Below, piece by piece: positions 4,173 to 32,636 of a stretch of DNA of 64,000 nt. Location of the stretch: positions 1-64,000 of the IMG/VR virus record IMGVR_UViG_3300035670_000030. One strand, 5' to 3'. A program made the translations under genes and the position numbers. Numbering within the stretch: the first letter of the stretch is position 1; every line of letters starts with the position of its first letter. The notes beneath the pieces are model-generated. The model had not been told where the DNA came from. It saw only the letters and a list, made by a program, of their open reading frames with translations, and did no database searches. The stretch is from a virus.

Positions 4173-4179
4173 GTGTAAT
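4173..4179 (+). promoter_or_regulatory. Late promoter box GTGTAAT
   Basis: GTGTAAT ends 10 nt before the ATG at 4190 of the leucine-rich-repeat gene. It matches the boxes before other virion-type genes. Confidence 0.6.
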
Positions 4180-18107: not shown

Positions 18108-18114
18108 ATTACAC
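18108..18114 (-). promoter_or_regulatory. Late promoter box GTGTAAT
   Basis: The minus strand reads GTGTAAT followed by TATTATAATAATAAA to the ATG at 18092 (15 nt, longer than usual). Confidence 0.5.
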
Positions 18115-30026: not shown

Positions 30027-30097
30027 TGCGGGATGTCGGAATCGAACCGACGACTTGACTTTGGAAGAGTCCAGTTTTACCACTAAACTAATCCCGC
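30027..30097 (-). tRNA. tRNA-Gly(TCC)
   Basis: Acceptor GCGGGAT with ATCCCGC; anticodon arm with loop CTTCCAA (anticodon TCC, reads GGA); T-loop TTCGATT; discriminator A. The first anticodon-stem pair is a G-A mismatch. It ends 4 nt after the fibre gene stop on the other strand. Confidence 0.93.
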
Positions 30098-30506: not shown

Positions 30507-30597
30507 TACTGGGTGCTGGAATCGAACCAGCGCTCGGCCCTCATCTAGGGCACCACGGGTATAAGCCGTGCGGTGCTTCCAGTTACACTAACCCAGT
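30507..30597 (-). tRNA. Class II tRNA with anticodon TAT (nominally Ile)
   Basis: 91 nt. Acceptor ACTGGGT with ACCCAGT and discriminator A; D arm GTGT with GCAC; anticodon arm CACGG-CTTATAC-CCGTG (anticodon TAT, reads AUA); T arm GCTGG-TTCGATT-CCAGC. A 22-nt variable region with a perfect GCCCT/AGGGC stem makes this class II, which is normal only for Leu, Ser and Tyr tRNAs. Amino-acid identity is therefore uncertain. Confidence 0.8.
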
Positions 30598-30830: not shown

Positions 30831-30838
30831 CTTAAAAG

Positions 30839-30909
30839 CTGCCCCCCAACGACTCGAACGTTGAAAAATTCCTCCAAAGGGAACCGTGATACCATTTCAC
30901 CAGAGGGCA
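30839..30909 (-). tRNA. tRNA-Gln(TTG)
   Basis: Acceptor TGCCCTC with GGGGGCA; anticodon arm GTTCC-CTTTGGA-GGAAT (anticodon TTG, reads CAA); T arm CAACG-TTCGAGT-CGTTG; discriminator G. Confidence 0.92.
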
Positions 30910-31226: not shown

Positions 31227-31299
31227 TAGCAGGAGTGAGATTTGAACTCACGCATGGTAGGTTATGAGCCTACTGACTTAACCTCTTGTCGATCCTGCA
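31227..31299 (-). tRNA. Initiator-type tRNA-Met(CAT)
   Basis: 73 nt, anticodon arm GTAGG-CTCATAA-CCTAC. Initiator features: no Watson-Crick pair at 1-72 (U1-U72), G2-C71 and C3-G70, A11-U24 in the D stem, T-loop TTCAAAT, and G30-C40 and G31-C39 in the anticodon stem. The third pair is A29-U41, not G-C; AU/GC/GC variants are known in some initiator tRNAs (rhizobia, mycoplasmas). I therefore prefer fMet to elongator Met or lysidine-modified Ile. Confidence 0.8.
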
Positions 31300-31308
31300 A
31301 TTAAAATT

Positions 31309-31661
31309 TGGTGTTTTTATCGCACTTTGGACCAGATCAGAGTTGCGCCTCTGCTGGCATTGTCTAACAACCTGTTAGACTCAGAACACCTAACCATTTA
31401 ACAGCGGTTTTAGCCCATCTAGCTTTGGATAACCCAGAACCCACGCTCTTCTTTTTTGACTATCAACTATAGTAGTCTTATTCACTGTGGAACTCTATAT
31501 GTCTAGCCAGAACACGGACACGTATCCGTTATATAGAGAGGTAGAGTTGCATACCTTAATTAAAGGCGATCCCGATTTTAATGGTTGTACATCGCCACAC
31601 CACCATTTATTAGCATCTCTGCTCCTATCGAGCGGTTTGCTAATAAAATTTTTCAAAGAAC
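31309..31661 (-). ncRNA. Structured noncoding RNA, about 350 nt, family not recognised
   Basis: No convincing reading frame, but dense helices and more G+C than the flanks. Minus-strand order: 10-bp perfect stem 31647-31638/31615-31606 capped by GCUC/GAGC; GGCGAU/AUCGCC (31596-31591/31570-31565); 8-bp 31538-31531/31500-31493 with an inner ACGGA hairpin; GACUA/UAGUC (31477-31473/31462-31458). The 3' domain is a three-way junction closed by GGUGUUC/GAAACACC-like pairing (31390-31384/31316-31310) with a 7-bp GUCUAAC hairpin (31380-31362) and a 9-bp CCAG/CAGAG hairpin (31357-31332). A TTGACA-17-TATATA promoter fixes the 5' end near 31661. The 3' end probably comes from processing at tRNA-Met. Confidence 0.72.
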
Positions 31662-31667
31662 TATTTT

Positions 31668-31696
31668 TATATACACTTATTTTATTACTTTGTCAA
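31668..31696 (-). promoter_or_regulatory. Sigma-70 promoter for the structured RNA
   Basis: TTGACA (31696-31691), 17 nt, TATATA (31673-31668). The predicted start is near 31661, a few bases before the first long stem. Confidence 0.75.
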
Positions 31697-32157: not shown

Positions 32158-32178
32158 TATATTATTCTTTGAAATTTA

Positions 32179-32636
32179 GGGCGTGTACTGGTTTCGACAT
32201 TTGGTTGAAATTAAAAACGCATGTCGAGGTTAATCGATGGCCTCGTAAAAAATCGATTAAAAAATTAAAAGCAGAAGATAATACTGCCGATATCTTGGCT
32301 GAAGCCGAGTATATCTTTAACAATGCTTCCGAGTTCCTCGGTGGTGTTGAAGAAGAGTATCTCTTAGCAGCCTAAGGTCTTTATAACCAGATCCTCTAAG
32401 GTTATATCGATAAACAGAGGATGTCAGATTGTTGGTAGTTCTGATGTAATAATAAAATATCAACCGTTTATAGATTGCGATAATGTCTATAGGCAGACTG
32501 TAAACTCGGTTAGTATCACCAAGCAGCCTAAAGTCTTCGCTACCGTATGGTAGCTGAAATGCTAAAGACACTTAAACATGTAGACTTTTTAACGTAAATT
32601 AAATGGACAGGAGTTCAACTCTCCTCACGTCCACCA
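32179..32636 (+). ncRNA. ssrA: tmRNA (transfer-messenger RNA), 458 nt
   Basis: Acceptor GGGCGUG pairs with CACGUCC (7 bp including G-U), followed by encoded ACCA. The 5' domain reads UACUGGUUUCGAC, as in E. coli tmRNA. The GAGG ... GGCCUCGUAAAAA element forms pseudoknot 1, with a perfect 9-bp UUAAUCGAU/AUCGAUUAA partner helix. The 3' part has AACAUGUAGA and T arm AGGAG-UUCAACU-CUCCU. One-piece form. It rescues stalled ribosomes and tags nascent peptides, with the host SmpB. It is about 95 nt longer than E. coli tmRNA, mostly because of the tag region. No SmpB is seen in this window. Confidence 0.96.
32271..32375 (+). other. tmRNA tag reading frame, 34 codons
   Basis: The resume codon is GCA at 32271, 10 nt after the pseudoknot 1 helix, the same place as in E. 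coli (11 nt). The tag begins AEDNTADILAEAEYIF, continues NNASEFLGGV and ends EEEYLLAA, then TAA (32373-32375). The hydrophobic L-L-A-A end is a ClpXP-type degradation signal. Most bacterial tags are 8-15 codons, and few exceed 30. Confidence 0.8.

Follow-up and report, generated by a model that had tools for sequence, protein, structure and literature searches.

A phage initiator-type tRNA with A29:U41 in its anticodon stem, compared with viral and cellular initiators

Why should a phage bring its own, less canonical initiator tRNA? The question is raised by a CAU tRNA gene in the window, the 64,000-base stretch of DNA analysed here, which comprises bases 1-64000 of a 143,730-base IMG/VR virus record. 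The presence of an initiator-type tRNA in a phage is ordinary, as many isolated phages have one, and phage tRNA-fMet genes have already been annotated, for instance in Caulobacter phage CcrSC and in Erwinia phage pEa_SNUABM_47 (PMC7760394). Initiator tRNAs from every domain of life are described as strongly conserving three G:C pairs of the anticodon stem, and a 1:72 mismatch, G2:C71, C3:G70 and A11:U24 aid formylation (PMC7949028). The role of the three G:C pairs is known mostly through E. coli mutants.

The gene was detected on the minus strand by both ARAGORN and the Rfam model RF00005, the latter with a score of 55 bits against a gathering threshold of 29 (Table 1). Its sequence is parsed as TGCAGGA TC GACA AGAGGTTA AGTC A GTAGG CTCATAA CCTAC CATGC GTGAG TTCAAAT CTCAC TCCTGCT A. 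In Sprinzl numbering, the acceptor strands TGCAGGA and TCCTGCT leave U1:U72 unpaired and form the two formylation-linked pairs G2:C71 and C3:G70, followed by A4:U69 and G5:C68; the D-stem pair 11:24 is A:U, the anticodon loop is CTCATAA and the T-loop TTCAAAT. The anticodon-stem pairs 29:41, 30:40 and 31:39 are A:U, G:C and G:C (AU/GC/GC), thus two of three G:C pairs, the discriminator is A73, and the 3' CCA is not encoded. The parsed structure contains every feature listed in the preliminary description (U-U at 1-72, G2-C71, C3-G70, A11-U24, TTCAAAT and the stem with two G-C pairs), as well as two that it did not mention: an A13:A22 mismatch that closes the D stem, and A26, a position occupied by G26 in 112 of the 114 cellular initiators among the matches listed in the survey described below. 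The metZWV/metY-type tRNA-fMet of E. coli shares with it the CAU anticodon, the unpaired 1:72, G2:C71, C3:G70, A11:U24, G30:C40, G31:C39 and A73, but differs in having G29:C41 instead of A29:U41 and C:A instead of U:U at 1:72; A26, the A13:A22 mismatch and the unencoded CCA are further points in which the window tRNA is unlike its E. coli counterpart.

Table 1. RNA genes and associated elements around the initiator-type tRNA of the window
Feature	Position	Strand	Evidence
tRNA-fMet, initiator-type (CAU)	31227..31299	-	ARAGORN; RF00005; parsed structure; kept in relatives
Putative promoter of sigma70 type (TTGACA-N19-TATAAA), ahead of the RNA leading into the tRNA	31666..31696	-	sequence; kept in G016, G004 and G015
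boxA-like TTCTTTGAA, directly downstream of the promoter	31652..31660	-	sequence
Candidate structured non-coding RNA, ~340 nt, from promoter to tRNA-fMet	31310..31651	-	19 compensated pairs, 4 phages
tmRNA, 133.8 bits	32179..32636	+	Rfam; kept in nine phages of this lineage; same translation gene cluster
tRNA-Gln (TTG), downstream of tRNA-fMet	30838..30909	-	ARAGORN
tRNA-Ile (TAT)	30507..30597	-	ARAGORN
tRNA-Gly (TCC)	30027..30097	-	ARAGORN; Rfam

Related phages were identified through the phage DnaE-like DNA polymerase, which matched 40 virus loci, 19 of them at 74-97% amino-acid identity and the others near 38-40%, and their tRNA-bearing stretches were compared. The CAU tRNA of G016 and G004 is letter-identical to that of the window, and in other relatives it is conserved with covarying stems, and hence the window tRNA is not a chance occurrence. 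In an alignment of ten related genes, the pairs 2:71, 3:70, 10:25 and 11:24 are invariant, compensatory changes are found at 11 of the 19 predicted pairs, and 1:72 is mismatched throughout while its letters switch among U:U, C:C and A:C. The initiator of G007 has U:U at 1:72 and an AU/GC/UG stem, and an AU/CG/GC stem is found both in G014 and G019 (A:C at 1:72) and in G010, G011 and G018 (C:C). C30:G40 thus occurs naturally in five relatives, always together with A29:U41; initiators of C30:G40 relatives are located at L126 5463-5534, L128 1661-1732 and L125 9084-9156. In three relatives (G004, G015 and G010) there is a second, elongator-type tRNA-Met gene, in which 1:72 is paired and 11:24 is C:G. 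At the initiator locus, G015 contains an initiator-like CAU tRNA with a 19-base, hairpin-capable variable arm. Between 14 and 20 tRNA genes covering most amino acids, plus a tmRNA, were counted in each of G004, G007, G010, G011, G015, G016, G018 and G019. Overall, the relatives provide strong comparative evidence that an initiator identity is maintained.

We consider the gene to be a working phage tRNA-fMet in a lineage that carries a large tRNA set and a tmRNA, with a probability of roughly 0.85. Comparison with the relatives makes the initiator identity well supported at the sequence level and agrees with the preliminary proposal that the phage supplies its own initiator tRNA, given that the determinants named there are all present and kept in relatives and that the hallmarks of elongator Met and Ile2 tRNAs are absent. 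Positions outside the hallmarks and search patterns were scored by log-odds trained on 103 distinct cellular initiators and 44 distinct other CAU tRNAs (elongator or Ile2), with leave-out scores of at least +5.5 for initiators and at most -6 for non-initiators. The window tRNA scored -1.1, between both ranges. Away from the hallmarks it thus differs from cellular initiators (A26, A29:U41 and a short D stem), and it is the hallmarks, together with their retention in relatives, that identify it. The initiator-type tRNAs of the relatives scored from -13 to +10, and phage elongators from -41 to -52.

The neutral score outside the hallmark positions could also speak for an elongator tRNA-Met that lost its 1:72 pair by chance, as could the CAU anticodon and an AU/GC/GC stem short of the full initiator signature. 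We rejected this explanation as quite improbable, since 1:72 is an unpaired U:U and 11:24 is A:U rather than Y11:R24, the mismatch is retained in nine relatives though its letters change, and the distinct elongator Met tRNAs of the relatives have the very low scores given above. The CAU anticodon is also common to tRNA-Ile2, in which C34 is converted to lysidine and AUA is decoded. In cellular CAU tRNAs other than initiators, 1:72 is G:C and 11:24 is C:G, and E. coli tRNA-Ile2 has C4:G69 and C5:G68, whereas the window tRNA has U1:U72, A11:U24, A4:U69 and G5:C68 and shows none of the Ile2 hallmarks; as the phage moreover already encodes a tRNA-Ile (UAU), an Ile2 identity is hardly credible and was rejected. 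A neutral, decaying tRNA gene would account for the A13:A22 mismatch, the unencoded CCA and the variable anticodon stem among the relatives, but the same letters in three phages, the invariant hallmark pairs and the compensatory changes among relatives render decay highly improbable.

The anticodon stems of viral and cellular initiators were surveyed on viral contigs and GTDB genomes with the same settings and a pattern that required G2, C3, U8, A11-U24 and the CTCATAA loop and left the anticodon stem free. The matches listed include 101 viral and 114 cellular initiator-type tRNAs, counted without phylogenetic weighting and, for the viral contigs, without identified hosts. Among these matches, GC/GC/GC was found in 13/101 viral versus 97/114 cellular tRNAs (Fisher p = 2.5e-28), and a 31:39 pair other than G:C in 44/101 versus 1/114 (p = 2e-16). 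AU/GC/GC was the commonest viral class among the matches listed (23/101) and was present in 14 of the 114 cellular tRNAs; the stem of the window tRNA is therefore less odd than it seemed, as it occurs in cells and tops the viral classes. For background, we used the remaining tRNAs at those viral loci, with counts derived from rounded fractions. Against this background, the viral initiators among the matches listed more often had G30:C40 (93/101 versus about 69%, p = 3e-7) and G31:C39 (57/101 versus about 16%, p = 7e-17), while 29:41 was at background level with no enrichment of G29:C41. This order of retention, 30:40 > 31:39 > 29:41, agrees with the strong contact between A1339 and 30:40 seen by cryo-EM (PMC11497404).

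The survey pattern cannot match 9-base D loops, and two phyla were therefore sampled again with a more permissive gap (N{1,4}). This pattern matched 85 of 100 Pseudomonadota genomes; judged by the 5' strand of the stem, 21 of the 85 have AU/GC/GC, and two have a copy in which position 31 is C. Among Bacteroidota, it matched 74 of 99 genomes, and the 5' strand of the stem reads GGG in every match. The preliminary description had stated that AU/GC/GC initiators exist in some rhizobia and mycoplasmas. Their existence in cells was seen directly in genomes, but the attribution to these two groups was not found in the literature searched. The cellular AU/GC/GC initiators (part of Pseudomonadota, some Bacteroidales and others) have the three stem pairs of the window tRNA and differ from it at most other positions. 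The stem of the window tRNA is thus shared with some cells, whereas the broader loosening of the rule is largely a viral trait. Among the matches listed, substitutions at 31:39 or 30:40, such as the C30:G40 of the relatives, are almost exclusively viral.

Phage-borne initiator-type tRNAs with A11:U24, usually with an unpaired or A-U 1:72 and often with a non-canonical stem, are also found in Caulobacter phages CcrSC and phiCbK, Mycobacterium phage Myrna, Gordonia phage GodonK, Cellulophaga phage phi4:1 and others. These isolated phages are unrelated to the window phage, and a search of the isolate-phage collection with the window tRNA gave no DNA match. Deviations from GC/GC/GC were seen in 15 of 20 initiator-type tRNAs of isolated or named phages, a fraction that is not unbiased, as the tRNAs were retrieved with just two queries, an E. 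coli sequence and an invented consensus. Variable arms of 17-20 nt were observed on initiator-like CAU tRNAs in 6/101 viral and 0/114 cellular cases among the matches listed, with one more in G015 (loci with long arms: L119 6661-6750; L169, L175, L200, L201, L221 and L222). The literature searched contained no account of a relaxed anticodon stem as a general property of viral initiators, although this does not prove the trend to be new.

The tRNA gene lies in a stretch rich in RNA genes. Eleven tRNA genes were found in the window by ARAGORN and eleven in the whole record by Rfam, all of the latter inside the window. The candidate structured RNA may be co-transcribed with the tRNA-fMet; it folds with a z-score of -2.9, compared with -5.3 for the complementary strand, and an Rfam search of the RNA at 31310-31670 gave no match. 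The motif TTCTTTGAA, which we take to be boxA-like because it resembles the antiterminators of rRNA leaders, is found ahead of the tmRNA in G000, G016, G015 and G007; in the window, this motif and the tmRNA span 32165-32636 on the plus strand. The tag predicted for the tmRNA is long, with 32-34 aa, e.g. AEDNTADILAEAEYIFNNASEFLGGVEEEYLLAA.

The preliminary description had connected the initiator tRNA with leaderless transcripts, which is plausible from the sequence of the start regions. A Shine-Dalgarno signal was present at 5 of 121 phage start regions, compared with 2 in the control window. GTGTAAT is overrepresented in front of start codons, and at about nine genes the box ends 7-11 bases before the ATG; the motif (often AAGTGTAAT) was noted 7-15 nt before start codons, at 4173, 6221, 9168, 28143 and 42821 on the plus strand, at 18114 and 26410 on the minus strand, and elsewhere. 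As a -10 element, GTGTAAT would imply very short leaders, and it is probably a phage promoter, which would give rise to leaderless or near-leaderless mRNAs. Two proteins of the G000 record match a sigma-70/ECF NCBIfam model and are possible phage sigma factors for GTGTAAT promoters. The absent Shine-Dalgarno signal suggested a Bacteroidota host, but Bacteroidota-type promoter motifs are not enriched, in contrast to TTGACA/TATAAT-type sites (31 versus 15-22 in shuffles), and no host is therefore claimed. A search for a close isolate relative of the window phage found none.

We propose that the tRNA-fMet would be transcribed leftward through the structured RNA, perhaps from the TTGACA/TATAAA promoter, trimmed by host RNases and completed at its 3' end by the host CCA-adding enzyme. 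Host MetRS would charge it via the CAU anticodon, and the host formyltransferase would read the unpaired 1:72 together with G2:C71, C3:G70 and A11:U24. Neither Fmt nor deformylase domains were found in 12 related records, which implies reliance on host enzymes. The open 1:72 would keep EF-Tu off, and IF2 would bring the tRNA to the P site. There, A1339 and G1338 of 16S rRNA dock on 30:40 and 29:41, respectively, as observed by cryo-EM, and the C30:G40 swap of the E. coli laboratory variant M1 loosens the P-site grip and lowers start-codon discrimination (PMC11497404); an initiator mutated to UA/CG/AU is reported to have no activity in E. coli (PMC10486304). The M1 swap is natural in five relatives, while the window tRNA retains G30:C40. 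From the published E. coli work, the window tRNA should be formylatable and should retain the stronger of the two 16S contacts: G30:C40 would be gripped by A1339, and A29:U41 may weaken the G1338 side of the grip relative to canonical initiators. During infection, the phage tRNA would top up or replace the host initiator.

Apart from supply, the gene might be kept mainly against VapC-type host defence nucleases, with the altered stem resisting cleavage. Phage tRNAs can evade tRNA-cutting defences, and initiator tRNA is cut by VapC enzymes according to work cited in the same paper (PMC10264068); the differences from cells, furthermore, sit in anticodon-stem pairs near the anticodon loop. However, the window tRNA and most of its relatives have an unaltered CTCATAA loop (the survey pattern itself required this loop), phages generally avoid tRNA-fMet if its anticodon is targeted (PMC10264068), and no VapC-type nuclease is known for the phage's host. 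We regard a mainly protective role as unlikely.

Beyond the window gene as a working tRNA-fMet, we tentatively suggest, with more doubt than confidence, that phage initiators form a distinct functional class in which the formylation determinants and G30:C40 are selected, while 29:41 and 31:39 (sometimes 30:40) are released or retuned or a long variable arm is added, so that P-site grip and start-site stringency differ from those of the host initiator. If true, such initiators may favour phage, possibly leaderless, mRNAs or escape initiator-targeting nucleases. Viruses appear to hold many natural initiators that break the rule, with 29:41 freely exchanged, 31:39 half kept and 30:40 nearly fixed. 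These natural viral alleles would offer a test of the role of each stem pair and make the rule of three G-C pairs testable in nature.
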